Positions 38,274 to 55,540 of a DNA stretch of 64,000 nt are shown piece after piece; the first letter of the stretch is position 1, and each line of letters opens with the position of its first letter. The translations under genes and the position numbers were made by a program. Source of the DNA: Gloeothece verrucosa PCC 7822 (lineage in GTDB: Bacteria; Cyanobacteriota; Cyanobacteriia; Cyanobacteriales; Microcystaceae). The notes beneath the pieces were generated by a model that made no database searches, was not told the DNA's origin, and saw only the letters and a list, made by a program, of their open reading frames with translations. The stretch is taken from positions 5,076,501 through 5,140,500 of the forward strand of contig NC_014501.1 in NCBI RefSeq assembly GCF_000147335.1, read 5' to 3'.

Positions 38274-38306
38274 TAAAGGGAGGTCAATAGTTTCTCAAGA
38301 TGTCAA

Positions 38307-38773: not shown

Positions 38774-38802
38774 TTAATTAGCGTATTTTTTACGCTAATT
38801 AA
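38774..38802. repeat. palindrome TTAATTAGCGTA / TACGCTAATTAA, copy 2
   Basis: A perfect 12-bp stem with loop TTTTT, downstream of the frameshifted gene and of the TIR gene (38840, minus strand). With the T-run in the loop and TTTTCTCC after it, it might act as a terminator, but the shared core with 38249-38273 and 51618-51640 points to a family of sites. Confidence 0.75.
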
Positions 38803-38839
38803 TTTTCTCCTTTGTCCAAAGTCCAATTGAGAGCAAAAT

Positions 38840-39238
38840 CTAGTTTGATTGACGGAGTGACAAGCTTTTTACACCTTGTCTCCTAAGCGTACCGCTTCGT
38901 AGCGCGCGTATCTCAGAGTAGCTATGCGCGCAACCATATTTGGCAGAAAGGAACTTCACCCAGGGGTTTTCTGGCGATCGCTTGACGGGATGACCAACAG
39001 GTTTTGAGCGCACCCGTAGCACAGCCGCAGATACTTTCTGTAGAGTAATTTGTATCTCGTCGTGCCAGTCAGTGCCTAATTCAATCCTTTGGTCCGACCA
39101 AATATCGGCTTGATCATTTAGCTGTAAGGGTTCTAATTGTTCTAGCAGACGATCTAACCAGCGCTTAGATGGATCTAGACTCTCGTTATCATTGTGAGCG
39201 TAACAAATAAAGATTTGAGGAGAACTTGTAGCACTCAT
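38840..39238 (-). CDS. TIR-domain protein, C-terminus decayed
   Basis: The first 70 residues are a good TIR domain start: SSPQIFICYAHNDNESLDPS, then LQLNDQADIWSDQRIELGTD and WHDEIQITLQKVSAAVL. The expected continuation (a strand followed by FLxSxFC...E with the catalytic Glu) is broken by an in-frame stretch (RVRSKPVGHPVKRSPENPW) and the last 45 residues come from a GCGCGC-rich repeat (38890-38935). The NADase centre is therefore probably lost. It follows a ribbon-helix-helix gene by 11 bp. An intact relative would be a candidate signalling or defence effector; this one is likely a remnant. Confidence 0.65.
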   Translation of the reverse strand: MSATSSPQIFICYAHNDNESLDPSKRWLDRLLEQLEPLQLNDQADIWSDQRIELGTDWHDEIQITLQKVSAAVLRVRSKPVGHPVKRSPENPWVKFLSAKYGCAHSYSEIRALRSGTLRRQGVKSLSLRQSN

Positions 39239-39249
39239 CTACGAGATCC

Positions 39250-39468
39250 TCACCACTGACCTTTAACCAATACTTCTAGCTCACCGACTCGTTTTTCGAG
39301 TTGAGCCACTTTTACTGATGTAGGTACATCTTCTGTACTGTTGAGGTATTGAGCCAAAGCACTTAAAACCACTTCGGTTTTAGTGACATTGACATTTTGA
39401 GCATGAAGCTTCAACTTTTCAAACAAGGAAGGAGGAACTCGCAGCGCCATTTGTATGCTATTAGGCAT
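39250..39468 (-). CDS. ribbon-helix-helix protein with coiled-coil tail
   Basis: The 72-residue protein starts MPNSIQMALRVPPSLFEKLK, a CopG/Arc-type strand and helix (about 5-45, with TKTEVVLSALAQYL as the second helix), then a short heptad stretch (VAQLEKRVGELEVLV). RHH proteins bind DNA as dimers and often repress their own operon or act as antitoxins or plasmid copy/partition regulators. It is 11 bp upstream of the TIR gene on the same strand, so it may have controlled it. The upstream region is the large non-coding segment 39469-40259. Confidence 0.72.
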   Translation of the reverse strand: MPNSIQMALRVPPSLFEKLKLHAQNVNVTKTEVVLSALAQYLNSTEDVPTSVKVAQLEKRVGELEVLVKGQW

Positions 39469-40259
39469 TTTCCTTTTTAATAATTGCCATACATAATATA
39501 GTTGCTGAAATGCGAACTCGTCAGTATTCGTTTTACATTATTTAATATTTAACCAAAATTCTCTATTTCCCAAAATTTTGTCTTAATGTCGAGCTTAAAA
39601 GCGTTATCTGATAGTTATTGCTCTTATTGACATCAACCAACTCAAAATTTTTACTCCCCCCTTAAACGCCTTCTAAGTGTTGACTAACCCTAAAACCTTA
39701 CCAAATAAGCATTTAACGATTTCAACACTTGTGCTTGTCAAATCTTTGTTGACGACTTGTTGACTAACTGTTTATAATCTGTTGAATAAAATGTAATGTA
39801 TATATATCAATACTTATAACGATTAATTAAACTCCCATACGATACACCTTGTAGAGGAGGGGTGTTATCTGACCTCTTCACAAAACTTAACGTTCAAGTT
39901 AATGAGAATATATTTCATTTAAGTGAAGATAGCACCTAAAAATAGTAATACGAACTTTTCCATTACTATTTGTCAATCCGGTAAGGCTTTTTTACCTCCA
40001 CTTTCCACACCTAATTTTTAATCAAATGCTCCCCTTAACAAGCACATTTATATGAGCATGATTCATCTACTGGTTAAATGTAGATTTAAGGGTATTAAAA
40101 ATAGCATTATCTCAATTTTTAAGCAACTTAAATTAAGTTTGTTATAATTATTTTTAACAAACCAATATACTTTAGTCACTCAAGCTATTAATCAATAACA
40201 GTGGTGTTTAAAGCAGGTTATTCAGTTTTTTTTGCTGTCGATCACCCTTTAAAGCGAGT
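39469..40259. other. 791-bp non-coding plasmid region, candidate replication origin
   Basis: No gene is seen. It is AT-rich and holds short repeats: GTGTTGACTAAC at 39677-39688 and TTGTTGACTAAC at 39757-39768, with a third TTTGTTGAC at 39745-39753, and the inverse TTCAACACTT at 39721-39730. AATAGTAAT (39941-39949) pairs with ATTACTATT (39962-39970). It adjoins the end of the replicative helicase gene. Directly repeated units beside a rep-type gene are a usual origin layout, but the repeats are few and the assignment is inference. Confidence 0.4.
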
Positions 40260-42494: not shown

Positions 42495-42533
42495 AATTCT
42501 CCAGTTTTTGAATTGCTGGAGTTCCCATAAACA

Positions 42534-42624
42534 GTGGCAAAACCTGAAGGAGTAAGAGACAATAAAAGTAATACAGGATTGAGAGGCATGGGCAAGCCTC
42601 TGGTTAAAACTCCAGTTTTGCCAC
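42534..42624 (-). promoter_or_regulatory. leader with inverted repeats upstream of the helicase gene
   Basis: GTGGCAAAAC (42534-42543) pairs perfectly with GTTTTGCCAC (42615-42624), and inside is the smaller hairpin GAGGC/GCCTC around 42580-42600. It lies 40-130 bp ahead of the helicase start. Such structures before plasmid rep genes often serve attenuation or antisense-RNA control of copy number; that role is inferred. Confidence 0.5.
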
Positions 42625-42651
42625 CAGGGGAACCCCGGCTATTTTCTGTGT

Positions 42652-43530
42652 TTAATCGTTGGGGTTGTCCAATTCCCCCAAAAGCATTTGTCTAGTTCCT
42701 TTTTTATTGGCATACTGTTTATCGAGCCAGGGCAGAAGATCACGAGGCAATTTTTTGGATTTAACTAAAGCTGGTTCGATTAACCATTGCTCGTCACTAA
42801 CGCCTATGGTGGCCAACCAGTGATAGCAAGCCTTTGTGTTCTTTCCAAAACCATATCGCTTGGCCAAATAAGTAATTCCTACTCCCTCATATTTAGAAAC
42901 CGCTCTACCATATTGATCAACTGGTATTAAGGTTTCGACCCTTTCGGTTTTGGTGATGATGGCTTCAGGTTTGCCTAAGATTAAAGCGACCATTTCACTT
43001 CCGTGTAGAGTAGCTATAGCTTGAGTGGTCATGAGTAACCGTTCCTGAGTTTTCGCTAACTCTAGTTCTAGCTTTAGTTTTTCAATTTCTTGGGTTTGGG
43101 CGGGAATGACTTTTTCAACAGCATTCAATAAAGATGTTCGGACAAGTTTAGCTACTTCTGAATCGGTAAGCAACATCGCCAATCTTAACGCACCGCGAGG
43201 TGTCCATAAAGTTACATTAGAAGATGTTGAAGTGAGTGACACTCTGTCACGCACATCCTTTAAATCTTTACCCCGTATAGTCTTTACCCCATCTGCATCA
43301 AATTCATCTTTGTGACGCTGATAGACTTTTCGGATAGTGGCAGTAGATTGAACCTCAAAAAAATCAGCTAACTGTTCAGTAGTGCTTATGCCTGTGCCTC
43401 GCCAAAGAGAAAAGTATAAAGACTTAACGTTGAGTAAAATTGATTGGGCACGTTCAGGCGAAATTAAGCCGAGTTGATTGTTCCGAGCCGTTGCTGACTC
43501 AATGAGTACGTTTTCACTGAGTAAATTCAT
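42652..43530 (-). CDS. phage-regulator/antirepressor-like protein
   Basis: The 292-residue protein has an N-terminal helical domain (about 20-110) of the type seen in phage-derived regulators (ISTTEQLADFFEVQSTATIR, TLWTPRGALRLAMLLTDSEV, KLVRTSLLNAVEKV), a coiled coil (about 125-160), and a C-terminal DNA-binding-like part (KYEGVGITYLAKRYGFGKNT, HWLATIGVSDEQW). The order resembles BRO/Rha/ANT-type antirepressors. It is followed by the helicase gene and preceded by the XRE repressor gene, both on the same strand, so the three may be one regulatory and replication operon. Confidence 0.55.
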   Translation of the reverse strand: MNLLSENVLIESATARNNQLGLISPERAQSILLNVKSLYFSLWRGTGISTTEQLADFFEVQSTATIRKVYQRHKDEFDADGVKTIRGKDLKDVRDRVSLTSTSSNVTLWTPRGALRLAMLLTDSEVAKLVRTSLLNAVEKVIPAQTQEIEKLKLELELAKTQERLLMTTQAIATLHGSEMVALILGKPEAIITKTERVETLIPVDQYGRAVSKYEGVGITYLAKRYGFGKNTKACYHWLATIGVSDEQWLIEPALVKSKKLPRDLLPWLDKQYANKKGTRQMLLGELDNPND

Positions 43531-43562
43531 GATGTTAGCCTTAAAACTTTAAATATCTTTGA

Positions 43563-43805
43563 TTAATGTGAGTTACCGTTGTCTCCAGTTTGATCGGCTT
43601 CAAGATACTCAATTAACTCATTAGGGGCGCATTCAAGAGCATCACATAAACGAATTACTCTTTCTATCCATTCAAGAACGCTACGGCCTTTTTCATAATT
43701 TCTAATGGTGGTTTCAGTTACACCAACTTTATCGGCTAACTCTCGCTGAGTTAGCCCCGCTTTTTCACGAAGTATAGCTATTTTACTCACTGGTATTTTT
43801 CCCAT
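43563..43805 (-). CDS. XRE-family transcriptional repressor
   Basis: I take ATG 43805 (MGKIPVSKIAILREKAGLTQ); the frame extends ten codons upstream. The 80-residue product is a single Cro/CI helix-turn-helix domain (TQRELADKVGVTETTIRNYE) with EWIERVIRLCDALECAPNEL completing the five-helix fold, and an acidic tail. It is divergent from the plus-strand accessory genes, with a strong promoter and palindrome between (43855-43889), so it probably represses the divergent promoter and its own. Confidence 0.88.
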   Translation of the reverse strand: MGKIPVSKIAILREKAGLTQRELADKVGVTETTIRNYEKGRSVLEWIERVIRLCDALECAPNELIEYLEADQTGDNGNSH

Positions 43806-43854
43806 AAAAAGGTTTATAGCAAAATTATAACGCAAAAGTCTTTACATAAAAGTA

Positions 43855-43889
43855 TTGACAGCATAAATAGTTTTACGCTAAACTATTTA
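43855..43889 (+). promoter_or_regulatory. promoter with overlapping operator between the XRE gene and the accessory cluster
   Basis: TTGACA (43855-43860), an 18-bp spacer and TAAACT (43879-43884) form a good sigma-70-type promoter pointing to the plus-strand cluster. A perfect 10-bp inverted repeat, TAAATAGTTT (43864-43873) and AAACTATTTA (43880-43889), overlaps the spacer and -10 box, where a repressor would block it. The middle contains the half-site TACGCTAA (43874-43881), the core also found in the plasmid palindromes. Confidence 0.7.
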
Positions 43890-44058
43890 CAGTTGCTCAA
43901 AGCACAACCAATCCGACAAAACTGTAAAACAGTTTGTCATCAATGCTCTTAGAGGGGCATGATGCAAATTATTCCCTATTTCAAATAAGGCAAAGAGGAG
44001 AACGAAGTTTATTGCCTCGCTCTCCTAACAAATTCATTCAATTTCTTATTCTTTTATC

Positions 44059-44481
44059 ATGTCACATACTCAAGTATTACAACAAACCCAAACTGTAGAA
44101 GCCGCAGGTATCCCTCGTATAGAGTACCGCCCACAACCCGAAGAAAAGACAGCTATCTGCATCCATTTCACCCCGACTTACCCTCACGACGAATACGCTT
44201 ACTCCGAACCTAAGTTTGTTTGGGGTACTGAAGTGGCAATAGCCGCAGAATGGGAGAAGGTACAGGGAACCGAAGCGGCTTCGGAACTGAAGTTTTACCG
44301 CATCCGAGCAATAGAATTGGTGGAGCCGCTCGTCAAAACCAACGCAAAAGAGCGGCTATTCGACGAACCGTACTGGCTCTATGCTGTCGGTGATTCACGC
44401 TACGAGCGTGGGCTACGCTGGCTGAGTGAGGATGAATTACTTCATAAACGAGAGCTAGAAGTCGAAATCGAACCATTCTAA
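44059..44481 (+). CDS. hypothetical plasmid protein, 140 aa
   Basis: ATG 44059 opens a 140-residue frame, first in the plus-strand accessory run and about 170 bp after the promoter at 43855. The sequence is acidic and aromatic-rich (YRPQPEEKTAICIHFTPTYP, EPKFVWGTEVAIAAEWEKVQ, GLRWLSEDELLHKRELEVEI). The build recalls small cyanobacterial plasmid/heterocyst-associated unknown families (for example the DUF1392 type), but I cannot confirm that. It has no membrane helix or catalytic motif. An inverted repeat of part of the 3' end (GCTACGAGCGTGGGCTACG) is an ordinary palindrome-rich stretch. Confidence 0.7.
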   Translation: MSHTQVLQQTQTVEAAGIPRIEYRPQPEEKTAICIHFTPTYPHDEYAYSEPKFVWGTEVAIAAEWEKVQGTEAASELKFYRIRAIELVEPLVKTNAKERLFDEPYWLYAVGDSRYERGLRWLSEDELLHKRELEVEIEPF

Positions 44482-44619
44482 AAATATCTGAGAAAGAGGG
44501 GGCAATCCCTCCTCTTTCACCCACTATAGTCTCTAACTAGGTTTTACTTGCACTTAATTAGCCATCGCAACGGGAGAGGGCTTGTAACTCTCCCAACGAG
44601 AAAAAAGGAGATTAAAGCC

Positions 44620-44808
44620 ATGAGAAACCGATGGAAAAGCCAATTATCTCAGGTATGCAAAGAATATTACCTCTTAGTTAACGCCAATAACTGTTACTGG
44701 GAAGGTAACAATTGGACGACGGATAGGTACAAAGCGAAACGGTATTTAACTTTAACGACGGCTAGATCGGCACAGAGCCGGTTAAAGCGGCAAGGGCCGA
44801 ATTTTTAA
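44620..44808 (+). CDS. hypothetical plasmid protein, 62 aa, basic
   Basis: ATG 44620 follows AAAAAAGGAGATTAAAGCC, a clear ribosome site; the open frame extends to 44548 without another good start. The product (MRNRWKSQLSQVCKEYYLLV to QSRLKRQGPNF) is basic, with many Tyr, Trp and Arg residues, and could bind nucleic acid. I recognise no family. It lies between two other unknown genes of the accessory run. Confidence 0.6.
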   Translation: MRNRWKSQLSQVCKEYYLLVNANNCYWEGNNWTTDRYKAKRYLTLTTARSAQSRLKRQGPNF

Positions 44809-44838
44809 ATCCTTTACAACAACAATCGAGGCAGCGTT

Positions 44839-45252
44839 ATGATTAACAATTCACCAATTCCTGAACAATACTCAGTTTTGGTCGTGGAACCCACCTTGAT
44901 CAAAGGCAATAAAAACGGAATTTTAGATTTATTAATTGTTCTTGCCAATGCTTTATCTGATGGTGGAGCTTGTTCGGAATTTTTAAATCCCAAGGGAGAT
45001 GCTTTTGACGTACAAGCTCGGTGGTGTAACACTTTTGAGCAGCTAGAAGGAAACAGCCAAACTGTTTCCACCCCAGACATAAATCAGGAATTAGAAGTAA
45101 TTTTAAGGCAGCTAATTAATAAGCATTCTTTAATTGGAATTCTGACGACTTTAAAGCATATTGGCGATCAGGCTCATAAAAACGATCCTGATGGCGATTG
45201 GAAACAAGACGCAGATGCTTTATCAGTAGCAATTGAGAGGATAGAAAACTAA
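44839..45252 (+). CDS. hypothetical plasmid protein, 137 aa
   Basis: ATG 44839 lies 30 bp after the previous gene. The 137-residue acidic protein has a hydrophobic helix-like core (ILDLLIVLANALSDGGACSE) and a helical C-terminal part (LEVILRQLINKHSLIGILTT, then DGDWKQDADALSVAIERI). No catalytic motif is seen. Its TAA overlaps the next ATG (TAATG), so the two genes are translationally coupled. Confidence 0.65.
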   Translation: MINNSPIPEQYSVLVVEPTLIKGNKNGILDLLIVLANALSDGGACSEFLNPKGDAFDVQARWCNTFEQLEGNSQTVSTPDINQELEVILRQLINKHSLIGILTTLKHIGDQAHKNDPDGDWKQDADALSVAIERIEN

Positions 45253-45863
45253 TGAATAATTCAACCTTAACAAATCTAAACTCTCCCGACATAGATATTA
45301 TTGCCGTTTGGCCGGGATTCGGGAAACCGGACTGTAAAAATGCCCAATTCGACTCAACGGCTAGAGTACGAATCTGGACTAACAAAACTCCCGTAATAGT
45401 AGTGTTCTCGGATTTAGACGGACTCGATACGGGATGCTCAATTACGAATTGCTCAGAAAACCTTGCCACGTTGGTGAAGCTGCACTACAAGTTAACTGAA
45501 CCGATAACATGGCTAGAACATTACCCCCGTCATAACCGTTCCGAGATTGATTTGAAAATTAATAAGCTTACTGAGGATGTCAGTCAAGTCTTTTATTGCA
45601 CTAAAAACGGTTATTATTTCCATCCCCGTTGGAAACATCTGGATTTAGATGCTGCCCGTAAAATGATTGGCCATTCTCTGTCAATGGATGGGGAATTTAA
45701 TTTGCCCGTTGTGCGGCTAGTAACACCATACGAACAGCAACGAATGGATTTTGAGGCAGGGTTAGCCGATGCCAAAAACGGAGTATCTAAGATAGCCGAT
45801 GCTAATGATGCCTATCAACAGGGGTACAGCTACGGACTCCAATTAAACATGACTCCCAATTAG
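45252..45863 (+). CDS. hypothetical plasmid protein, 203 aa
   Basis: ATG 45252 shares one base with the preceding stop. The 203-residue protein starts with an alpha/beta-like part (IIAVWPGFGKPDCKNAQFDS, TPVIVVFSDLDGLDTGC) and ends in a region with DFEAGLADAKNGVSKIAD and AYQQGYSYGLQL, a motif like those in small DNA-associated phage or plasmid proteins ('F..G..DA..G....AY..GY'). It may be a host-interaction or DNA-modification accessory protein. I cannot assign a function. Confidence 0.65.
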   Translation: MNNSTLTNLNSPDIDIIAVWPGFGKPDCKNAQFDSTARVRIWTNKTPVIVVFSDLDGLDTGCSITNCSENLATLVKLHYKLTEPITWLEHYPRHNRSEIDLKINKLTEDVSQVFYCTKNGYYFHPRWKHLDLDAARKMIGHSLSMDGEFNLPVVRLVTPYEQQRMDFEAGLADAKNGVSKIADANDAYQQGYSYGLQLNMTPN

Positions 45864-45909
45864 CAGAACTGGAAAATTTTAGCCTTAATTACCATAAAAA
45901 TCATTTTTT

Positions 45910-46122
45910 ATGAACAATCCGATGAATTACAAAACCCAACCAGGATTAATCGCGGCCTTGAAAAGAGCAACCTCTAAACCTATGTCAGTAAAGTTGGCTT
46001 GGTGGTTTAAACAGGCAGAATACGCTCTTATCAATAATTTGGGTGGGATGAAGAGTCAGCAGCAACATTGGTCGCTTCACATCACCCCAGAATTTCGGTC
46101 TATCGGGCTACGGACTGAGTAA
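45910..46122 (+). CDS. hypothetical small protein, 70 aa
   Basis: ATG 45910 opens a 70-residue basic, Trp-rich frame (MNNPMNYKTQPGLIAALKRA, KLAWWFKQAEYALINNLGG) without known motifs. It is in line with the accessory run, 46 bp after the previous gene. Its small size and lack of a clear ribosome site make it less certain than its neighbours. Confidence 0.45.
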   Translation: MNNPMNYKTQPGLIAALKRATSKPMSVKLAWWFKQAEYALINNLGGMKSQQQHWSLHITPEFRSIGLRTE

Positions 46123-46180
46123 AGAGCCAAATTCTCCTCTAGTTGAGTTTAAAACTGATAAATTGCACATTTTTTTAATC

Positions 46181-46375
46181 ATGAAACAGCAACGAAGAAC
46201 TAACTTACCCATATCCAGATGCCAGTGTGGGCAGTGTCAGCAATTGGAAATAGAAGACGGCTATCCCCATACCTTCATCTGTAGCGGATGTAATCAACAA
46301 CGTTGGTGGTGCTACGGGGCAGATGATGAAAATTTTTCTCTGTGTGACTTTTGTGTAGTAGCAGGAGACAAATGA
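46181..46375 (+). CDS. small eight-cysteine zinc-binding protein
   Basis: ATG 46181 (MKQQRRTNLPISRCQCGQCQ) starts a 64-residue protein with eight cysteines: CQCGQC, FICSGC, WWC and LCDFC. These spacings suit one or two treble-clef or ribbon zinc sites. Such tiny zinc proteins on plasmids often bind nucleic acid or act as adaptors. No wider family is recognised. The stop lies 90 bp before the next gene's start. Confidence 0.6.
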   Translation: MKQQRRTNLPISRCQCGQCQQLEIEDGYPHTFICSGCNQQRWWCYGADDENFSLCDFCVVAGDK

Positions 46376-46464
46376 ATTTTCATCTCCTGTAACACAGATG
46401 GGGGAAGCGCATCCAACCAACACGCTTTTTGGAAATTTTTATTGCACTTTACTTAAAACCAACC

Positions 46465-47277
46465 ATGAAAATCATTACTTCTGATTCACAAAAAACATCA
46501 GTTTTACTGCCAACGCAACTAACCCAACTGTACACGAGACTGGATGGGGGTGCGATCGTTAACCGACAATTCGATTCGGATTTGAGCGAAGCCTTCCGTT
46601 CGGGGGAATTCGACGCTCATATTGTCGCCCAGAAAGCCGATTTAGTTTTAATTAATCCTTCGCGTCCCAATTACTCTCCCGTTCGCCCCTTAACTCTGGG
46701 AGATTTTTATAAGGGGGAACTATTCAGAGAGATTTTTGCCATTCCCGTATCTGGCTGGATTCTCAAAGATAAACAGTTTGTGGAGAAAACCCGGCGCGAA
46801 CCTAATCGCTTGGAAGAGAATGTTTTATGTACATTTCTCTTGAGGGGCAGAAGTCTTGACGAGTACGCCAAAATGGTGACACCGTTTGAAGTGTCGTTGT
46901 TTCAGGAATACATAGCCAAAGTTTCCGAGTTAAAACCCGACTATCCCACGATAGAATCTTACGTTGCAGCTAAAGCTAATACGATTTACAGCGAGAAAAT
47001 ATTCAGCTTTGTCTTCACTCACACTAACAAAGGAGTGAAAGCACATTGGTATCTCACTTGGAGCTACCGCGACCCCATAAACGAGACTGAAAAAGAATTG
47101 CTCGAAATCGGCAACAAAATTTCCAGCGATCCCGAAATTTGCTCCCATTACCTCGTCAATCCCGTAGCCGAAAAGGGTTATTTAAAAGCCATATCGGGTG
47201 AATCTGCTGCTCCATCAGTACCCGGACTGCGCCCAGGACTGGCAACCAATTCACTACCAGCTACAGCAACTAAATAA
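46465..47277 (+). CDS. hypothetical plasmid protein upstream of a nuclease, 270 aa
   Basis: ATG 46465 (MKIITSDSQKTSVLLPTQLT) gives 270 residues; the frame is open 12 codons further up. It is mixed alpha/beta, with LVLINPSRPNYSPVRPLTLG, FREIFAIPVSGWILKDKQFV, FSFVFTHTNKGVKAHWYLTW, and a Pro/Ala-rich C-terminal tail. The position directly before a PD-(D/E)XK exonuclease gene and the disordered tail are like phage single-strand annealing or ssDNA-binding proteins, which pair with such exonucleases. This role is a guess from context, with no diagnostic motif. Confidence 0.6.
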   Translation: MKIITSDSQKTSVLLPTQLTQLYTRLDGGAIVNRQFDSDLSEAFRSGEFDAHIVAQKADLVLINPSRPNYSPVRPLTLGDFYKGELFREIFAIPVSGWILKDKQFVEKTRREPNRLEENVLCTFLLRGRSLDEYAKMVTPFEVSLFQEYIAKVSELKPDYPTIESYVAAKANTIYSEKIFSFVFTHTNKGVKAHWYLTWSYRDPINETEKELLEIGNKISSDPEICSHYLVNPVAEKGYLKAISGESAAPSVPGLRPGLATNSLPATATK

Positions 47278-47348
47278 TAACCATTACAGCAGTAGGGGTT
47301 TTTCTCCTGCTGCTCTGTTACTGTACCAATAGACGAGGAAAGAAACTA

Positions 47349-48074
47349 ATGAAGAAGGATAAACCTCCATACATTCATCCAGACGGGTCTATATTGCCCT
47401 CAGTCAATCAGATCTTAGATGCTACCGATGAAACCCCATCCAAGACAAGAACTCCCTCAGAAGAGAAAAAAAGACAAGAACGAATGTACCGAGGTAGTTG
47501 CTGTCATGCGGCGATCGCTGATCTCTTAACCGGGACTACGCCAGTGATTGATGAAGTAATTTTACCCTGGTGGGCCAGTATCAGTGGTTTTGTTGGGGCT
47601 GTAGTCAAAGGGGAAGCCAAAATACTACTCAGTGAAAAGCCTCTTGTTCATCCGATTTTGAGATATGGGGGGACTCCTGACCTGATTCTTCAATGGCCAT
47701 CCAACACAACTACTTTAATTGACTTAAAATCTACCGAGGGGTCATGGAGCTACGATAAAAAAACGAAAACCCGCAGCTATACCCCATACTGGAACGAATA
47801 CCGACAATTAGACCCATCAGAAACACCGCCTAGATTTCTCACCTGGGATAATGCCAATCCCTATCTCAAGCGGGCTTGGATTCAGTCAACTTTTTACAAG
47901 ATGTTAGCTGAATATCACGATATATCTATTTCGGAGATTTGGATCGTGGTTTTAACAAAGGCGAATTATCAGGTTATCCCACTGAGAGGAGATTTGTGGA
48001 GTCATTGTTACAGCGAAGCGATCGCAAGACTAGAAAAGTTTTATGCCCCAAAAATTGAAATAGAAGTGGCTTAA
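47349..48074 (+). CDS. PD-(D/E)XK superfamily nuclease
   Basis: The 241-residue protein contains the RecB/Cas4-like core: GSCCHAAIADLL (the His-containing helix), YGGTPDLILQW (catalytic Asp), and TTLIDLKSTEG (Asp-x-Lys), followed by a helix with a conserved Gln region (IQSTFYKMLAEYHDISISEI). It has no iron-sulfur cysteine set, so it is not a full Cas4. Related enzymes act as 5'-3' exonucleases in phage and plasmid recombination. It starts 72 bp after the previous gene and is 55 bp before the next. Confidence 0.78.
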   Translation: MKKDKPPYIHPDGSILPSVNQILDATDETPSKTRTPSEEKKRQERMYRGSCCHAAIADLLTGTTPVIDEVILPWWASISGFVGAVVKGEAKILLSEKPLVHPILRYGGTPDLILQWPSNTTTLIDLKSTEGSWSYDKKTKTRSYTPYWNEYRQLDPSETPPRFLTWDNANPYLKRAWIQSTFYKMLAEYHDISISEIWIVVLTKANYQVIPLRGDLWSHCYSEAIARLEKFYAPKIEIEVA

Positions 48075-48129
48075 GCTTAGGCCACCTCAACAAAACCCGC
48101 GCAATAATTTCAGTGGAGATCCTACCATT

Positions 48130-48984
48130 ATGAGCCAAGTAATTCTACCATCAGAATACCGAAGCGAATTTGTCATCAATCCTGATGGAACAGTAACCGC
48201 TACACGCCGGGCTACTGCCAGATTAGCCGGAGTCGATCCGACGCAGTTGTATCATGCCTCCCGTGATACGGGATTACTAAAAAATTTAGTTGATGGAAAA
48301 AACCTGTCTAAGGTACTTGAACCTTTTACGGGGAGAGACTTTAGGGGTGATGGAAATTTCTTGCCCGATGTAATAGTCGCGGCTATTATTCAGCATTATG
48401 CCTTTAAAGGTAACGAAACTGCACAACTGACTGCATTAGCTTTTAGTGCTGTGGGAATAAGAACTTGGTTGCATACTCAGCTTGGTTCACAGCAGCCGTC
48501 GCCCCCTAACTCATCGCTCTCAACCCTGGACGAGATTAATATTATATTTGCCGGACTGCAAAAACTGTCAATTAAACCTGAGTTAGTCGAATCAGCTAAA
48601 CTTACAGCGATCGCCAAAACATTACCCCATTTGCGATCAGCCGCAGAGGAAGGTAAAAAATTACTCTCATCACAAATGACGATCCCCCAACTGCCAATGT
48701 CCCCTACAGAATTAGGGAAAATCTTGGCGGCCAAGTTGGGTTTGCCCGAACCCATCTCACCTCGACGTATTAATGAAGCTTTAACTGAAGCTGGACTACA
48801 AACTGCCGAAACGATTATTAATAAAAAAGGGCAGAAAAAGATTCAGTACAAATTAACTGATACTGGAGAAAAATATGGACAGTTGCAGTTGGATAGCGCT
48901 GCCAATCATGGTAAGACTATCATGATTGTACGGTGGCATGAAACGGTTTTAAAAATTATTCAATCTCAGTTGACAGATGCCTAA
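48130..48984 (+). CDS. phage-regulator-like protein, 284 aa
   Basis: The 284-residue protein has an N-terminal region of the phage-antirepressor/KilA-N-like kind (INPDGTVTATRRATARLAGV, HASRDTGLLKNLVDGKNLSK, VIVAAIIQHYAFKGNETAQL), and a C-terminal winged-helix-like part (TELGKILAAKLGLPEPISPR, RINEALTEAGLQTAETIINK, YKLTDTGEKYGQLQL). That second part is common at the end of phage antirepressors and cyanobacterial plasmid regulators. It follows the nuclease gene by 55 bp. It is distinct from the protein at 42652-43530, though both carry phage-regulator features. Confidence 0.6.
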   Translation: MSQVILPSEYRSEFVINPDGTVTATRRATARLAGVDPTQLYHASRDTGLLKNLVDGKNLSKVLEPFTGRDFRGDGNFLPDVIVAAIIQHYAFKGNETAQLTALAFSAVGIRTWLHTQLGSQQPSPPNSSLSTLDEINIIFAGLQKLSIKPELVESAKLTAIAKTLPHLRSAAEEGKKLLSSQMTIPQLPMSPTELGKILAAKLGLPEPISPRRINEALTEAGLQTAETIINKKGQKKIQYKLTDTGEKYGQLQLDSAANHGKTIMIVRWHETVLKIIQSQLTDA

Positions 48985-49050
48985 TTTATTATGAGCTAAT
49001 GGCTTTTACTGTCCTTGAAAAATAACGGTAAATTTTTCTAAATCTACATC

Positions 49051-49356
49051 ATGAACCTTGACACTTTTAATGAAGAGTATTATCCTTTTTACATAGAGGT
49101 TGGTTACACAATCACAGATATTCCCTCCGTAACCGACGAAGAACTTGAAAAATTATATACCGACCTGGAAGCCGGACTAGAAGCGGCAGTTGAGAAAGGT
49201 TTTCGTGAAGGAAAAGTTAAATATTTTCTTCTTCTTTCCGGCTACGGTAATCGAATAGCTACCGTTCCCGTAGATACGGATAGCTTTGATCAGGAAGTCC
49301 CTCAAGAATTTTTTGAAACCGTTAAAAATTACCGGCCTTTTAAAGCTGACTTTTAA
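49051..49356 (+). CDS. hypothetical acidic protein, 101 aa
   Basis: ATG 49051 opens a 101-residue very acidic frame (MNLDTFNEEYYPFYIEVGYT, SVTDEELEKLYTDLEAGLEA, SFDQEVPQEFFETVKNYRPF). It has no membrane helix or known motif and could be a DNA mimic or inhibitor by charge, but this is speculative. It is followed 22 bp later by the next gene, after GGAGAAAAAAGA. Confidence 0.6.
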   Translation: MNLDTFNEEYYPFYIEVGYTITDIPSVTDEELEKLYTDLEAGLEAAVEKGFREGKVKYFLLLSGYGNRIATVPVDTDSFDQEVPQEFFETVKNYRPFKADF

Positions 49357-49378
49357 TGGCAAATAAGGAGAAAAAAGA

Positions 49379-50104
49379 ATGACCGAAGATAATTTCATTG
49401 TTAACGACAATACTTTTCCCGTACCCATTCCTTGCACAGTGATGTTAGAGGGTAAAAAACGGAAAGCTAAACAATTAAGAGAAATGCGGATAGGAACTGA
49501 TGCGAAAAATAGCCCTATTCTTAACAAACTAGACCAGATAGTTTTAGTAGAACTGGAAACCGGTGAGCGCTATTGGGTAAATTCAACCGCTATCTTAGAG
49601 TATTGTTTTCCTGGAGAGGGTTGGCTCAGTGTTGAACCAACAATCCCTGTAATAGTACAGAAAACTGATGGAGAAATTTATTATCTGGTGGGAACTGAAC
49701 AAGAGAAAGAAATCTTTTACGAGTGGGTTTCCTTATCAGGACAAACAATTTCTGTCGCTCAAATTGGAGCCGAGATTTTTCCCAAGTCGGAAAACTTCTC
49801 TTACATCTTGCGGGTAGAACCTATTTCTAATCTAGTTAATTATTGCTGTTTAATTTCTCCCCCTAAATTTTTAACTTGGTTAAATCGGCGAAGAATCTCA
49901 TCTTGTCGGGATTTCTCAAAAAAAATACTCGAACTCTACAAAGAAGAGAAAGAAATTGTTTTAGAAGAAGAAAACTATCCAGCATGGTTAGTTGAGTGGA
50001 GTCAGCGCCTTGATAGCGAGTACGATCCTTGCTTAACTCTAGCCATTAACATTTTAAGTAAATGCCCTTGGGGTTCACCTAGAGTCTGTAATACGGTTCA
50101 TTAA
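49379..50104 (+). CDS. hypothetical plasmid protein, 241 aa
   Basis: ATG 49379 has a good AAGGAG site upstream. The 241-residue protein is beta-rich in its first 110 residues (PVPIPCTVMLEGKKRKAKQL, IVLVELETGERYWVNSTAIL), suggesting a small barrel. It is helical at the end, with Cys-containing pieces (ISNLVNYCCLISPPKFLTWL). I do not recognise it. It sits between two other unknown or nuclease genes of the run. Confidence 0.62.
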   Translation: MTEDNFIVNDNTFPVPIPCTVMLEGKKRKAKQLREMRIGTDAKNSPILNKLDQIVLVELETGERYWVNSTAILEYCFPGEGWLSVEPTIPVIVQKTDGEIYYLVGTEQEKEIFYEWVSLSGQTISVAQIGAEIFPKSENFSYILRVEPISNLVNYCCLISPPKFLTWLNRRRISSCRDFSKKILELYKEEKEIVLEEENYPAWLVEWSQRLDSEYDPCLTLAINILSKCPWGSPRVCNTVH

Positions 50105-50140
50105 TAAATAATTTACTGTCATTAAAATTGAAAGAAACTT

Positions 50141-51016
50141 ATGTCACAAATTGAAATTTGCCTAATAATAGATACAGAAACCGATGGAGATAAAGACCAT
50201 CCAAAGGTAATAGAAGTCGGGGCGGTTTTGTACTCGGTAACGGGACAATGTATGCTCAGTTGTGGCTCCTCGCTAATAACCACGGATGCAGATATCAACC
50301 AAGCGTATTGGATTAATAAAATTCCTATTGAAGCGACTCATCTTTGCCCACAGCAGCAAAATTATTTCCTCAATTGGTTACAGGCCGCTTATGTTTCTGC
50401 TGATGCTATTATTGCCCATAATGCTAACTTTGATAAAGAATTAATTACAGCCTTGACATGGGCAAAAAAATGGGATAAACTTTGGCTATGTACTTATAAA
50501 GATTTTGAACTATTTCCTGAACAATATAACGGCAAAAGAGACTTAATTAGTCTCTCTCAATTCTACGGGATTGGAATCAGTTGCACTCACCGAGCCATAG
50601 ATGATTGCTTACTCTTAAAAGAGGTTTTTAACCGAGTCCAAAATTTACCCGAACATTTTCGGATCGCGCAACTGCCATTAGTGGAAGCGATCGCACCCAG
50701 AAAAATAGAAGGGTCCGATAATGAAGCGGTCTTGAGTCATGGTTTTAAATGGGATAAAGACACACACGCGCTCGTGAAAAAGGATAGAAGCGAAACCTTT
50801 GATTTTCCGGTCATTCCCTATTCATCAGAAAGAAAGAAGTTTAAAGCACTGGTAAGCTTCGATGACAGACAAAAAGCTGCTGATTGGGGATTTGTCTGGA
50901 AAGGGGAAACAAAGACTTGGTGGCGCTTCGCCAACCCATACGCCATAGATTTCTTCCCCTTCCCGGTTGCCGAACTGCATCCTGACCCAGAACAAGAAAG
51001 TTTAATTTCTGCATAG
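50141..51016 (+). CDS. DnaQ-type 3'-5' exonuclease with Trp-rich C-terminal repeats
   Basis: The 291-residue protein has a DEDDh exonuclease domain (about 1-175): ICLIIDTETDGDKDHPKVIE (Exo I, with Asp and Glu), AIIAHNANFDKELITALTW (Exo II Asp), and CTHRAIDDCLLLKEVF (Exo III, His and Asp). The C-terminal 90 residues hold two similar Trp-rich motifs, SHGFKWDKDTHALVKK and ADWGFVWKGETKTWWRF, of the DUF5710-like kind found in plasmid and phage DNA enzymes. It likely trims or proofreads DNA. It has no polymerase beside it. It lies 36 bp after the previous gene. Confidence 0.82.
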   Translation: MSQIEICLIIDTETDGDKDHPKVIEVGAVLYSVTGQCMLSCGSSLITTDADINQAYWINKIPIEATHLCPQQQNYFLNWLQAAYVSADAIIAHNANFDKELITALTWAKKWDKLWLCTYKDFELFPEQYNGKRDLISLSQFYGIGISCTHRAIDDCLLLKEVFNRVQNLPEHFRIAQLPLVEAIAPRKIEGSDNEAVLSHGFKWDKDTHALVKKDRSETFDFPVIPYSSERKKFKALVSFDDRQKAADWGFVWKGETKTWWRFANPYAIDFFPFPVAELHPDPEQESLISA

Positions 51017-51026
51017 GAATTTGTTT

Positions 51027-51281
51027 ATGAAACCACATCAAAAACTTTTACTCAATTTGCCCCTAGGACGGAAGCTAAAAAAGAGACTTCCTTTAAAAGT
51101 TATCTTCTTTATAAGCCAATTACAGGAAGAGAATAAAAAACTTGTTCAAGAATTAGAACAATTTCGTTCAGCTAAAATTCCCGATTCTGCTCAATTCAGG
51201 ATTAACCAATTGCAGACCGAGAATTCAAAACTTAAACAAAAACTATCATCCCTGGTTCAACCGACCCATCAAAAAATTTAG
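51027..51281 (+). CDS. small coiled-coil protein, 84 aa
   Basis: ATG 51027 (MKPHQKLLLNLPLGRKLKKR) starts a basic N-terminus followed by heptad repeats (SQLQEENKKLVQELEQFRSA, FRINQLQTENSKLKQKLSSL). It is a likely dimeric coiled coil. The function is unknown; small coiled-coil proteins in such runs can be partition or structural factors. It is 10 bp after the exonuclease gene, so probably co-translated. Confidence 0.6.
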   Translation: MKPHQKLLLNLPLGRKLKKRLPLKVIFFISQLQEENKKLVQELEQFRSAKIPDSAQFRINQLQTENSKLKQKLSSLVQPTHQKI

Positions 51282-51333
51282 TTTCCACTTTTTTGACGGC
51301 CTTGATTAATTTTAATTAAAAAAGAGAAAAATC

Positions 51334-51618
51334 ATGAATTCACTGCAAAAATATATCGACATCCAAGCGACTCAAATTGAACAGAACTTAGCTGCGATCG
51401 CCGACCTCCAACAACAGCTAAACGAGCTTAACCAACAGGTTCGGGTACAGCAACAGGTCAACCAAGCACAAAAAACCTCCCAAGTTGAAGTCAGCAAAGC
51501 TTTAAAATCTTTGGAGAAACTGTTCAAGGATATCTGTGGAATTTACCCGCCAGAGGCTATTGATGATTTAGTTGCTGATATTAAAAAGATTTGGACTTTG
51601 GACAAAAGAAAAAAATAA
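51334..51618 (+). CDS. coiled-coil protein, 94 aa
   Basis: ATG 51334 follows AAAGAGAAAAATC. The 94-residue protein is a long coiled coil over about residues 1-60 (IDIQATQIEQNLAAIADLQQ, QLNELNQQVRVQQQVNQAQK) and a helical tail (KSLEKLFKDICGIYPPEAID). It is the last gene of the accessory run and its stop touches the palindrome at 51618-51640. The function is unknown. Confidence 0.6.
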   Translation: MNSLQKYIDIQATQIEQNLAAIADLQQQLNELNQQVRVQQQVNQAQKTSQVEVSKALKSLEKLFKDICGIYPPEAIDDLVADIKKIWTLDKRKK

Positions 51619-51640
51619 TTAGCGTAAATATTACGCTAAT
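51618..51640. repeat. palindrome ATTAGCGTAA / TTACGCTAAT, copy 3
   Basis: A perfect 10-bp inverted repeat with a 3-nt loop (ATA) directly after the last accessory gene and about 95 bp before the end of the split transposase. It shares the core TTAGCGTA/TACGCTAA and the following ATATAAA with copy 1 (38249-38273). On the original circle, copies 1 and 3 flank the transposase gene on both sides. Confidence 0.75.
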
Positions 51641-51733
51641 ATAAAATTGACAATATTCCCTCTACCTCAGCCGGTAAAAATTGCTGAGTAATCGGAAAAA
51701 GAACAGCTTACTTGGCGATTTGAAAGTCCGCTT

Positions 51734-52066
51734 TTACTTGTTCAGTTTATTTTTTTGTCTTTTTTTGATAACTTGATGGCGAGTTCGTGGGACTTGTTTA
51801 TAACCTTTAATACGTCCAGAGGAATAACCCCGACGTTTGGGAGAAGAGGCAAATGTGCCCAATGTTGAAATTATTCGCTCAAAATCTCTTTGAACTAAAC
51901 TAGGAGAAATTTTAATTAATTCATTGGTTTTTAAATACTGTTCCCAAGGGCGGGGCAAAACAACAGCTAATTTTCTAGCCGCCCATAAATTTACATAAGC
52001 CAATAGTGTTAATTTGAACCAGTTTTCTTCGTGCCTTACATCGGGAGTAGAATAGGCTGTCATTAA
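51734..52066 (-). pseudogene. DDE transposase, C-terminal part (split at the circle junction)
   Basis: The frame read from 52066 (Leu codon in the TAA duplication, then ATG 52063) is LMTAYSTPDVRHEENWFKLT, continuing to YLKTNELIKISPSLVQRDFE and a basic tail. It is in phase with, and continues, the fragment ending FRFSKQKLL at 37114-37117 once one TAA is removed. The whole is 487 residues. The region VNLWAARKLAVVLPRPWEQY is typical of the end of IS701/IS4-like transposases. It cannot be expressed as part of the intact protein in the present arrangement. Confidence 0.85.
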
Positions 52067-52973
52067 GAGGGTGTTTATAAAGTAAATCTAAAGACAAGAA
52101 AAAAATAGGCCAAAAACGATTAATCTAATCTGGGTAATTGTTCGCAATCAAAAGTGAGGAGCGATCTGCTTGTATCCAAGTGATTTATCTGATGCCGAAT
52201 GGGAATTGCTTGCCCCACTTATTCCAGCCGCTAAATCCGGGGGACATCCGCGTACTACAGATATTAGACAAGTCTGTAATGCGATATATTATCATTTGAA
52301 GACCGGATGCCAATGGAGATATTTACCCAAAAATTTTCCTCCTCCCTCCACAGTCTATAGTTATTATCGCAAATGGGTCAAAAAGGGGGTTTGGGAAAAA
52401 ATCAATCACACCCTCCGGCAGATGGTTCGTCAACAGGTAGGGAAATCTCCGCAAAGTAGTGTAATCATAGCAGACAGCCAATCGGTGGAAACAACCGAAA
52501 AAAGGGGGATGTGTATGGCTTTGACGGTGGAAAAAAAGTCAAAGGCCGAAAAAGGCAATTATTAGTTGATAGTTTAGGATTAATCTTGAAAGTAATTGTA
52601 GCTGAAGCTCATGGTCAAGAAAGAGTCTTAGCGGCGACGGCGGTAATGGAACTATTAGAAGAAAATCCCAAACTGCTTGAAAAAGTGGCTTTAATGTGGG
52701 TAGATGCTGGTTATAGTGGTGATAAATTTGCTCTGGCTATTTGGTTGATGATTCAAGCAAGAGTAGAAGTAATAAAGCGTTCAGACAAAAAATTTAAAGT
52801 TTTACCGAAAAGATGGATTGTGGAACGAACGTTCGGCTGGTTTAACTGGTATCGTCGTTTGAGTAAAGATTATGAAAAATTATCAGAAATGAGTGAAGCC
52901 GCTATTTATGCAGTTATGACAAGGATAATGTTGCGTCGCCTCGTTTCTTAAGATTGACTTTATAAATAGCCTC
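52067..52973 (+). mobile_element. IS5-family insertion sequence, copy 2 (907 bp)
   Basis: The same sequence as the copy at 36207-37113 as far as I compared, same orientation, same 907-bp length. The left flank is TAA (52064-52066) and the right flank is TCA (52974-52976), the reverse of copy 1. Sequence identity between the copies indicates that they have not diverged since duplication, so the event is recent or the region was homogenised. Confidence 0.95.
52170..52951 (+). CDS. IS5-family transposase, made by -1 frameshift (copy 2)
   Basis: Two overlapping frames, TTG 52170 to 52565 and to 52951, overlap over the A7 run at 52531-52537. The predicted products are identical to copy 1. It has the same DDE residues split across the frames and should be made by -1 slippage. 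Confidence 0.92.
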
Positions 52974-55540
52974 TCAACCAAATTAATTTAGAGGATGAAC
53001 TGGTTTATGGGATTGTCTTGAATGATCAAGGAAAGCCCATCGGCATTTTCCTCAATAAACAAACCCCCCTACTTTCTCAAATCTTAGAAGATGAATCTAA
53101 CCCCAATCTAAACCTACAAGAAATCATCAATATCCTTAAAAACAAGGAAAATGTTCGGGAAATTCGCCAACCGATTTGGAGCAACAACTCAAAAATGGGG
53201 AAAATAGCTCAAATTCGCATCGGTTATGTGCCCTCGAAGATCCATCAGGATATTTTTAACCAAGCAGAAACCACCCTGATCACTTCTATATGTCTAAGCG
53301 GTATTTTAATCGCTATTGTTTATTTATTATTTTCTCACGAAATACATTTTCCCCTAAAAACTTTAATCAAATGGGCTAAACAGCAATTACCCGAACAAGC
53401 GGACCTACAAGAGGATGGTCAGCAACTCGAGGAATTGGAAATCCTCAAACGAGTCATTGAAAAATTATTGGAACAACAGAAATTAAGCTCAGAACAAGCT
53501 CAATCATCATCCTATCCTCTAGAAACTCCCCAACCTTACTTACAATACGAAAATCCAGCTAAAAGTCATTTTCTAGCGATGGTGGGGCATGAGTTACGCA
53601 CTCCCCTCAATGCGGTCACCGGCATGACCGGACTATTGCTAGATACCAAATTAACCAGCCAACAACGAGAATTTATCAATATCATTCGCAACAGTGGGGA
53701 AACCCTCCTGACAATGATTAATAACATTCTCGATTTTGCCAAAATAGAAGCTAACAAATTAGAACTCGAAGAAACCCCCTTTGAATTAGGAGAGTGCTTA
53801 GAAGATGCCTTGCGGCTGTTTGTGCCCCAAGCCGCCGAAAAAAAATTAGAATTAGCCTATTTAATTGAACCCCATACCCCCAATGCGATCATCGGAGACC
53901 TGACTCGTCTCAAGCAAATCGTGGTCAATTTGCTCAGTAATGCGGTTAAATTTACTGAATCAGGGGAAGTGGTGGTCTATGTTAATGCTAGTCCTGTGGC
54001 GAATTCATCTGAGGGAAATCCGCCTCTGTATGAGATTCGCTTTGCGGTTAAAGATACCGGCATTGGCATTCCCCGAGATAGGATTGATCGTTTATTTAAA
54101 TCCTTTAGTCAAATTGATGCCTCTACCTCTCGCAAATACGGCGGAACAGGACTCGGTTTAGCCATCAGCAAGCGCTTAACCGAAATGATGGGAGGAAAAA
54201 TGTGGTTTCACTCAGTGGAAGGCAAAGGCTCTACCTTTTACTTTACCGTCATTGCTCCTGCGGCTCCTAGCTCGAGTCCGGCTAATTCCCCCACCGCCGA
54301 AGAAATTTTAGGCGGAAAGCGAATGCTGATCGTGGATGATGTGATCACCAATCAAAAAATTCTGACCCATCAAGCTAATAATTGGGGAATGTTGACTTGT
54401 ACGGTGGAATCAGCCACAAAAGCTTTAGAATGGCTCAAACAGAAATGGGCTTTTGATGTGGTAATTTTAGACATGAATATGCCTCAGATTGATGGGTTAA
54501 CTTTAGCTCAAGAGATCCGCAAACTCCCTCAATGCAAAAGATTACCGTTAGTGTTATTAAGTTCTCTGGGTAAACCCGAAGTCACCGAACAAATTGAAAA
54601 AATAGAATTTGCTGCCATCTTAACGAAACCTATTCAACAATCTCAACTGTATGAAGTGCTGGTGCGCGTGCTACGAGAAAAACCCATCATCGTAAACCAT
54701 ACCTTAACAGATGCAGAACAGAAAAGATTAGCTGATACTATCCCGTTGCGAATTTTGGTGGCTGAAGATATCACGGTTAATCAAGAAGTTATCCGACTAC
54801 AATTAGAAAAACTCGGTTATATCCCAGATATCGTTAGTAATGGCATTGAAGTGTTAGAAGCCTTACGTCGTCAACCCTATGATGTCATCTTAATGGATAT
54901 CCGTATGCCAGAAATGGACGGATTAACCGCAACGACTCATATTAAAGAAGAATGGCTGCCGGCTGTACGGCCTCAGATTATTGCGATGACGGCGGATGCG
55001 ATGCGAGGAGACCGGGAAAAATGCTTAGACATAGGAATGGATGATTATATTTCTAAACCGGTTCGCCTAGAGGAGCTACGTAGAGCAATCAGTAAATGTC
55101 AGCCGATTCCGGATAAACCCCCCGCGATCGATGCTAAAATCTTAAATGATTTAAAACAAATGGCCGGACAACGAGCATCTAAAGTCTTAGCTGAATTAGT
55201 CAAAAGTTATTTAGAAGATGCTCCTGAGCGGCTAACAGCAATAGCCATCGCTATTGAAAACAAAAATCCTGAAGCCCTACGTCAAGCCGCCCATGCTCTG
55301 CGTTCTGCGAGTCTTCAGTTAGGGGCAACCCCATTGGCTTATCTGTGTCAAGAATTGGAAACTTTGGCCAGAGCCGGAACTGTGCTAGGGACTACCGAGA
55401 AATTATCGGGGATTACTACAGAATATCAAAGAGTTTGTCAAGCTTTAGATGAGGAAATTACTCAAGCTCAATTGCCCTTAAACGTCAATAATAATAATGT
55501 TAGTAAAAATTCCCTGCTTATCATCAATGACCATAACTGA
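52974..55540 (+). pseudogene. hybrid sensor kinase, C-terminal part (gene split by the integrated plasmid)
   Basis: Reading from 52977 in the frame of the N-terminal piece gives NQINLEDELVYGIVLNDQGK, then a sensor region, a second membrane helix (TSICLSGILIAIVYLLF), HisKA (VGHELRTPLNAVTGM), HATPase (NLLSNAVKFTES, DTGIGIP, GTGLGLAISKRL), two receiver domains (phospho-Asp in VVILDMNMPQIDG and in VILMDIRMPEMDG) and a C-terminal HPt domain (RQAAHALRSASLQL). Whole, it is a 935-residue phosphorelay kinase. The part left could be expressed from TTG 53018 (822+ residues) but would lack the first membrane helix. Its last 14 nt overlap the REC-GAF gene. Confidence 0.9.

Follow-up and report, generated by a model that had tools for sequence, protein, structure and literature searches.

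A candidate plasmid early region with a phrog_26896-family gene and two nuclease genes in the chromosome of Gloeothece verrucosa PCC 7822

Temperate immunity regions diversify by swapping repressors and the N-terminal parts of antirepressors, and single-stranded DNA (ssDNA)-binding proteins of the gp32 and SSB kind typically carry an acidic C-terminal tail. RecB-type PD-(D/E)XK nucleases are marked by a D...(D/E)xK signature together with QxxxY, and DEDDh exonucleases by the residues DxE, D and HxxxxD. In the Planktothrix phage PaV-LD (NC_016564), ORF142 encodes a protein of the phrog_26896 type, a PHROG family without an assigned function. Here we describe a run of genes from Gloeothece verrucosa PCC 7822 in which a member of this family (g7) precedes a nuclease gene (g8), with a second nuclease gene (g12) further on. 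The run (g1-g14, plus strand) starts at position 44059 of a 64,000-nt stretch of contig NC_014501.1 (C1, positions 5,076,501 to 5,140,500), hereafter the window, whose positions are used throughout. It lies in what we call the segment (37115-52974), between two insertion sequence (IS) copies, and together with a leftward helicase gene forms what we call the module. We put at roughly 0.6 the probability that the run is a plasmid's early region, with genes for replication and recombination; the plasmid would be cyanobacterial and phage-like, and IS recombination would have carried the region into the chromosome. The reading is based on the helicase, antirepressor and Xre domains of the left arm, on the PHROG exonuclease families matched by g8 and g12, on three constrained copies of the module, and on the presence of the g7 family on plasmids and, in PaV-LD, near genes for Rep and a DnaB-like helicase.

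The module, its copies and its control region

The run consists of 14 open reading frames (ORFs), compact and co-oriented. An earlier note on this DNA had its start and layout right and counted 13 genes; the partial translational coupling that it proposed is seen at g3 and g4, where stop and start share base 45252. Its right end, placed at 51618, is no natural end, as g14 runs into a transposon repeat from 51591. To the left, the conserved unit reaches as far as the helicase gene (40260-42494).

The genome (7,841,948 bp in seven contigs, completeness 99.98%) includes C1 (6,091,620 bp), C2 (291,993 bp), C5 (879,545 bp) and C6 (473,846 bp); a passage of PMC4320622 lists the replicons of Cyanothece sp. 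PCC 7822 as 6.1 Mb and 879, 473, 291, 47, 43 and 13 kb. The module is present three times, once in the chromosome and twice on the 292-kb contig C2. The copy C2a (C2, 29.2-39.0 kb) has the helicase gene and, in unchanged order, 11 of the 14 operon genes; an additional ORF stands between g1 and g2. C2b (~194-203 kb, operon genes at ~194-199 kb) has the helicase gene, an antirepressor gene and nine operon genes, again in order, and is without g4 and g7. No paralogue of g5, g6 or g11 was found in either copy, and the C2 matches of g9 and g14 are confined to their N-terminal parts. A fourth near-full-length helicase copy lies on C6, with no operon within the 35 kb examined.

Because paralogous copies recur in order on C2, the genes are, by comparison of sequences, real and their order beyond chance inside this genome. 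The ratio of nonsynonymous to synonymous divergence (Ka/Ks) was 0.07-0.27 in all 14 comparisons of the chromosomal copy with the C2 copies, which covered eight genes (g1, g3, g4, g7, g8, g10, g12 and the helicase gene) and give rough values, several Ks being above 1. Constraint is strongest for g7 and the helicase. With Ks between 0.36 and 2.1, the three copies are by this measure the product of old divergence and not recent duplicates, and the eight genes appear to be under strong purifying selection.

Three genes on the minus strand make up the left arm. The helicase (hel, 40260-42494) has a DnaB N-terminal domain (PF00772, E 2.3e-30) and a RecA-like ATPase domain, AAA_25 (PF13481, 1.5e-35); it is 86% identical to the C2a protein, 85% to that of C2b and 77-80% on C6, and is the probable replicative helicase of the element. 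Next come an ORF6N-type antirepressor (42652-43530; PF10543, 9.6e-7, and PHROG anti-repressors) and an Xre/Cro-type helix-turn-helix (HTH) repressor (43563-43805; PF01381, 1.1e-12), which is divergent from the operon. Residues 137-292 of the antirepressor are 84% identical to the C2b protein, while the N-terminal parts differ; each module copy has its own, different Xre protein, and the gaps between xre and g1 give no useful alignment. Repressor and antirepressor genes thus adjoin a replication gene, and the domain matches give the divergent arm the layout of a temperate early region.

The run had also been described as following an operator-controlled promoter. A sigma70-like candidate on the plus strand at 43855-43884 (TTGACA-18-TAAACT, with TTTTACGCTAAA at 43871-43882 spanning the -10 box) and the divergent Xre gene make this plausible, but promoter-like matches in the region are at chance level (22 observed against 20.3 ± 4.7). 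Operator repeats in the chromosomal xre-g1 gap were rejected, since shuffled sequences match the observed counts (30 of 60 shuffles reach them at k=9 and 48 of 60 at k=10). Repeats in the C2b gap do not exceed shuffles either (6/60 at k=9, 56/60 at k=10); those in the C2a gap do (0/60 at k=10).

Both nuclease assignments of the earlier note stand. The product of g8 (47349-48074, plus strand, 241 aa), which starts 71 bp downstream of g7, is a RecB-type PD-(D/E)XK nuclease by its match to the exonuclease family phrog_298 (3.4e-16) and by its motifs GGTPDLI, LIDLKS and QSTFY. A relative (L095) has AGTLDL, LFDFKT and QIAAY at these places; the first two g8 motifs align with this relative and another (L094), and the QxxxY of L095 was located by eye. 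A plasmid search with the g8 protein gave no match. The product of g12 (50141-51016, plus strand, 291 aa) is a DEDDh 3'-5' exonuclease by its matches and motifs, with an additional stretch at the C terminus; it matches phrog_192 (3e-18), the PADLOC DEDDh model (2.6e-18) and, more distantly, the PolC exonuclease 2p1j (3.4e-4), and has the motifs DTET, HNANFD and HRAIDD.

The g7 family and its nuclease neighbours

The protein directly before the nuclease is g7 (46465-47277, plus strand, 270 aa), which matches phrog_26896 at 3e-9 and has a Ka/Ks of 0.07. Its position, length and predicted disordered tail are as first described. All 17 family members tested match phrog_26896. At E ≤ 1, the PHROG scan of these 17 returned that family and four stray single-member matches, the Pfam scan four stray single-member matches as well (best E 0.0095), and no annealing or SSB family was among the matches of either scan. 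Against solved chains, the best E by sequence was 0.43.

The family occurs in eight of 72,556 plasmid records (search with the window protein) and at 57 loci on genome contigs, which by their titles belong to Nostoc and allied genera. With the PHROG profile, 11 of the order's 195 genomes contain it, and with alignment A2, 8 of the 386 in the phylum, our genome being counted in both. It is also found on seven viral contigs (alignment A3) and in cyanophage PaV-LD. Viral-contig scans with alignments A2 and A6 and with the window g8 found no relative, and the window g7 itself, searched against 50,697 phage records, has no match at E ≤ 0.01; the link to PaV-LD came via a relative. In most of the listed Nostoc-type proteins (L013-L069) an N-terminal stretch is almost invariant, and several genomes have more than one copy. 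Among the papers listed under the topics PaV-LD, PCC 7822 plasmids, annealing proteins, structure of the recombination directionality factor (RDF), DUF5895 and cyanobacterial plasmid replication, none has a title on this module.

Two AlphaFold models were compared with known structures, one of the window g7 (24 sequences; predicted local distance difference test, pLDDT, 61; predicted template modelling score, pTM, 0.64) and one of a viral relative (22 sequences, pLDDT 70, pTM 0.69). VIA re-ranking placed the T4 gp32 core (1gpc) first for the window model (Z 4.5, root-mean-square deviation (rmsd) 4.7, 144 residues aligned) and the RB69 gp32 core (2a1k) first for the viral relative (Z 5.3, rmsd 5.6, 149 aligned), at 3-6% identity. 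Many SSB and RPA oligonucleotide-binding (OB) folds follow in both rankings, mixed with unrelated rows; for the viral relative, the phiC31 RDF (Z 5.1) and proteasome chains come straight after the top row. An RDF identity for g7 was rejected, as that row came second for one model only. With the viral-relative model, BFVD returned 13 matches at E ≤ 0.001; one is named as an ssDNA-binding protein, and the rest carry no functional name. A single Z value is uninformative here; what carries weight is that two predicted models agree on one functional class. The comparison, a structure search that the earlier note had called for, thus put gp32 cores first, weakly, and listed no RecT, Red-beta, Erf or Sak rows, an absence that leaves these folds possible. 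With no profile match to these four among the 17 members, we rejected them as identities for g7, and the view of the nuclease's partner as an annealing protein was not supported. From the models, g7 is a possible OB-fold ssDNA-binding protein; since both rank gp32 cores first, a binding protein seems likelier, if unproven, than an annealer of the RecT or Red-beta kind.

The pairing of g7 and g8 recurs within the genome. Five of its six g8-type matches have a gene of the g7 superfamily as the next upstream ORF, namely g7 itself at two and a 205-aa protein at three; hhalign links the 205-aa protein to g7 with probabilities of 95.7 and 96.3 (E 8.6e-9 and 1.6e-9). The three 205-aa loci are all chromosomal and near-identical (two are 89% and 98% identical to the first in the 205-aa protein), and the nuclease is broken at two. 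Downstream of them lie an intact RecD2-like helicase gene at one, a broken one at another and transposon-type genes, judged by eye, at the third. The 205-aa type occurs in three plasmid records, and in one, from Synechocystis B12, a PD-(D/E)XK ORF lies downstream, separated from it by a short ORF, both partners being fragmentary. In PaV-LD-type elements (L131-L135, L138 and L149, but not L148), a gene for a coiled-coil-like protein of 150-190 aa mostly precedes g7 by eye, and in several of them the gene after g7 is presumably of the DUF5131/gp37 kind.

It is possible, if doubtful, that phrog_26896 and the 205-aa branch belong to a single superfamily, so far unrecognised, of ssDNA-binding, perhaps annealing, proteins of cyanobacterial plasmids and phages, whose sequences show no detectable kinship with SSB, RecT, Red-beta, Erf or Sak. 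Some of its members would then form an end-processing recombination pair with a dedicated RecB-type exonuclease, in plasmid early operons and in a chromosomal operon with a RecD2-like helicase.

IS borders and the origin of the segment

The segment is bordered by two 909-bp copies of an IS that we take to be IS5-like, copy A at 36206-37114 and copy B at 52066-52974, both on the plus strand and 100% identical by self-BLAST. Nine full-length identical copies occur in the genome; taken singly, neither A nor B has matching flanks, and the nine show target-site duplications of no consistent length. Just inside each border lies half of a minus-strand transposon split by the IS, the right half at 37115-38826 with the N-terminal part of the transposase and the left half at 51591-52065 with the C-terminal part. 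The inverted repeat 38772-38826/51591-51646 represents its terminal repeats of 56 bp. Joined, these inner flanks overlap by one base, restore an open transposase frame and rebuild a 2,186-bp transposon that is intact at C2:277380-279565 and C1:6057324-6059509; the right half is 100% identical to these copies. The outer flanks, when joined, give one open frame of ~957 codons, a kinase gene whose halves are adjacent in all five relatives' loci compared (39 genomes searched). As target-site duplications vary in length, one-base overlaps are by themselves weak evidence.

Direct IS copies with reciprocal restoration of both interrupted targets are the pattern of an integrated circle, and because the outer flanks restore the kinase gene and the inner flanks the transposon, 37115-52974 is probably, as read from its junctions, such a circle of ~15.9 kb (12.8 kb once transposon and IS are taken away). 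The transposon cut off the end of g14. In the simplest history, a circle already bearing transposon and IS would have recombined with an IS copy in the chromosomal kinase gene. The plasmid setting assumed in the earlier note is thus not that of the window, which sits on the 6.09-Mb chromosomal contig C1, and survives in the segment, which resembles an integrated plasmid.

Two other histories would leave similar borders. Entry as a composite transposon, with the IS copies as its two ends, fits their identity and direct orientation, but the inner flanks are complementary halves of one transposon with a one-base overlap, so that two separate transposon copies would each have had to take an insertion at one and the same position, where the circle needs a single insertion. 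C6 has a second such transposon that the IS interrupts at exactly this position, which keeps such a coincidence from being impossible; we consider this route improbable all the same. The chromosomal position could instead be an assembly error in which a separate plasmid was joined at identical IS copies. Recombination and misassembly yield identical junctions, the IS has nine identical full copies to be confused, and C6 breaks off (L177, C6:473171-473846) in this IS where it sits in this transposon, identical over 676 bp, which suggests that this repeat limited assembly. The second largest plasmid, NC_014534, is called linear in a passage of PMC4320622. That the assembly has only seven contigs at 99.98% completeness, and that PMC4320622 regards the 6.1-Mb element as the main chromosome, make an error of this kind unlikely. 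Integration of a circle by IS recombination is the likeliest of these histories.

Roles of the genes and alternative readings

Proceeding from the genes, their named families, paralogy and selection, and the IS junctions, we infer the following biochemical roles and regulation. The Xre repressor would hold down the rightward operon and the antirepressor relieve that repression, while the leftward-expressed DnaB-N/RecA-like helicase would drive replication of the element. The g7 protein may coat ssDNA at forks or resected ends, g8 may make or trim ssDNA ends, and g12 may trim 3' ends or proofread; together, the three would process ends and recombination intermediates during element replication.

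Several results weigh against this picture or narrow it. On the side of replication, no Rep or ParA family was recognised among the ORFs scanned in the segment, and there is no iteron array, 38827-44100 holding only two-copy repeats of 13-16 nt; the identical IS copies that suggest integration also allow an assembly join as the source of the pattern. For g7, Foldseek found no match to the PDB at E ≤ 0.001 with either model, the fold matches named above are weak (best Z 4.5 and 5.3), tied with unrelated rows at gaps below 1 and based on models of pLDDT 61 and 70, and the last 20 residues hold no Asp or Glu where an acidic tail would be expected. The pairing with g8 is limited too: C2b has g8 without g7; the three 205-aa loci count as about one recurrence, being near-identical and in two cases with broken nucleases; a g7-like ORF is absent, even at E ≤ 1, from all six g8-like loci of other genomes (five stretches of 10-20 kb and one of 3.4 kb); and outside this genome, in the flanks examined, a phrog_26896-type g7 occurs with a g8-like ORF only on the Synechocystis plasmid. 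Lastly, gene order is, as far as the sequences compared go, kept within this genome only. The 64 neighbourhoods of g7 relatives (L006-L069, 4-25 kb) gave no match to g8 or the helicase (tblastn, E ≤ 1e-4), one to g12 and three to g9, so that the conservation of gene order elsewhere, looked to by the earlier note, was not borne out.

The other operon genes, all on the plus strand, add few functional clues. Without recognised function are g1 (44059-44481, 140 aa; C2 paralogues 58-61%, Ka/Ks 0.17-0.19), g2 (44620-44808, 62 aa; 58% and 53%), g3 (44839-45252, 137 aa; 78% and 65%), g5 (45910-46122, 70 aa), g10 (49051-49356, 101 aa; 84-89%) and g11 (49379-50104, 241 aa). On a 673-kb contig of another genome (L141, 10826-11137), a g1-like gene is followed, three genes on, by a gene for a g8-like nuclease, and a DUF932-like gene stands between the two (identities assigned by eye). 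Residues 31-108 of g4 (45252-45863, 203 aa; C2a paralogue 72%) match N-terminal positions 16-93 of the 360 in the PADLOC SduA profile (1.3e-8), perhaps a domain outside the nuclease part of SduA. By eye, g6 (46181-46375, 64 aa) has cysteine pairs resembling a zinc ribbon. The product of g9 (48130-48984, 284 aa) is weakly BstA-like, and its N-terminal region recurs in genes that neighbour g8-like ones at two further loci of the chromosome. Both g13 (51027-51281, 84 aa) and g14 (51334-51618) are coiled-coil-like; g14 is truncated to 94 aa, against 211 aa in its homologues and paralogues, its end from 51591 being transposon sequence. Beside the transposon, a short minus-strand ORF (38840-39238) with a TIR domain (Pfam TIR_2, E 0.0017, below the curated cut-off) is probably a decayed remnant, and just beyond the segment border lies a minus-strand gene (33198-35495) for an NLR-like protein with HTH, NACHT and NCH2 parts.

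The likeness to phage recombination modules of annealing protein and exonuclease, drawn in the earlier note, is supported by the matches to phrog_298 and phrog_192, by the cyanophage-borne g7 family and by the divergent antirepressor, repressor and helicase genes, and is not supported as to the annealing partner or an order kept outside the genome. The same evidence bears on whether g7 and g8 together amount to an annealing recombinase of two genes, like Red-beta/Exo or RecT/RecE, in which g8 resects and g7 anneals. Adjacent same-strand genes in two module copies, a g8 product from a phage exonuclease family, and a distant g7 homologue before the same nuclease type at the near-identical chromosomal loci and on the Synechocystis plasmid speak for such a pair; yet the Pfam matches of the 17 members at E ≤ 1 include no annealing profile, the fold ranking favours gp32 and SSB OB folds, and the partnership is not obligatory, as C2b shows, and outside the genome was seen in one plasmid record only. 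We find it quite unlikely. A defence or counter-defence island seems very improbable. The SduA-like stretch of g4, the weak BstA likeness of g9, the antirepressor's match to a candidate-system model, and the NACHT gene and TIR fragment nearby are the points in its favour. The PADLOC scan, of ten proteins (g1, g3, g4, g7-g12 and the antirepressor), gave no complete known system, only partial or generic matches: SduA for g4, generic DEDDh for g12, and candidate-system models for g9, g12 and the antirepressor. The SduA match covers just 78 of 360 model positions, the NACHT gene stands outside the IS borders, and the layout is that of replication genes. The defence island was accordingly rejected, and with no conjugation family among the ORFs scanned, neither role that the earlier note had left open, defence or conjugation, was upheld.

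As the early region of a plasmid, the module is ordinary in kind, a set of plasmid replication and recombination genes. Its interest lies in an unnamed, widespread and possibly ssDNA-binding family, and in a well-marked candidate case of a chromosome that holds the core of a plasmid. Operons without a name abound on the large plasmids of cyanobacteria, and this one offers a testable function for the phrog_26896 family. Recombineering tools for cyanobacteria are few; if g7 does bind or anneal ssDNA, it could be a seed for them.

Among known systems, Lambda Red and RecET resemble the locus in that a small DNA-binding candidate adjoins an exonuclease gene, and differ in that g7 matches no annealing-family profile and is not an obligatory partner of the nuclease. 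The T4 and RB69 gp32 cores are the first structural neighbours of both g7 models, but identity is 3-6%, the Z values are too low to show a relationship and g7 is without the acidic tail. The phiC31 RDF (9teh chain) is tied with the first neighbour of the viral-relative model (rmsd 4.2, 122 aligned), but is not listed for the window model, and no serine integrase was recognised among the ORFs scanned. What we take to be the lambdoid immunity arrangement, a repressor and antirepressor divergent from an early operon, with regulators varying between copies, is seen here too, though the segment has no recognised lysis or structural genes and its operators are only predicted.

PaV-LD is the phage to which g7 leads, its ORF142 matching a g7 relative at 83.8%. 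Its g7-type gene stands at the end of the record, and a weak-HTH gene with divergent Rep and DnaB-like helicase genes at the start, an adjacency that assumes a circular or permuted genome. It differs in having no g8-like nuclease by hidden Markov model search in the 50 of 95 kb examined, and the segment in having no recognised capsid or tail gene; 17 segment ORFs reached structural PHROG families only at E 0.06 or worse, mostly through the coiled coil of g14. With capsid, tail and packaging genes unrecognised, the segment is not classed as a phage on its gene content. Plasmids of another genome (G126) were rejected as PaV-LD prophages, as their 20-kb stretches share only the g7 gene and, for one, an antirepressor stretch. 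A plasmid of Synechocystis sp. B12 (CP101713.1, 70.8 kb) has its genes spread out, a 205-aa gene split in two ORFs and a nuclease ORF of 113 aa, and is in these respects different. It has in common with the module a helicase relative (44.5% identity over 42% of the query), a phrog_26896-type g7, a 205-aa homologue and a PD-(D/E)XK gene; both g7 branches and the PD-(D/E)XK ORF lie within ~4.3 kb (L191, 19269-23607), the phrog_26896-type gene ~3 kb upstream.

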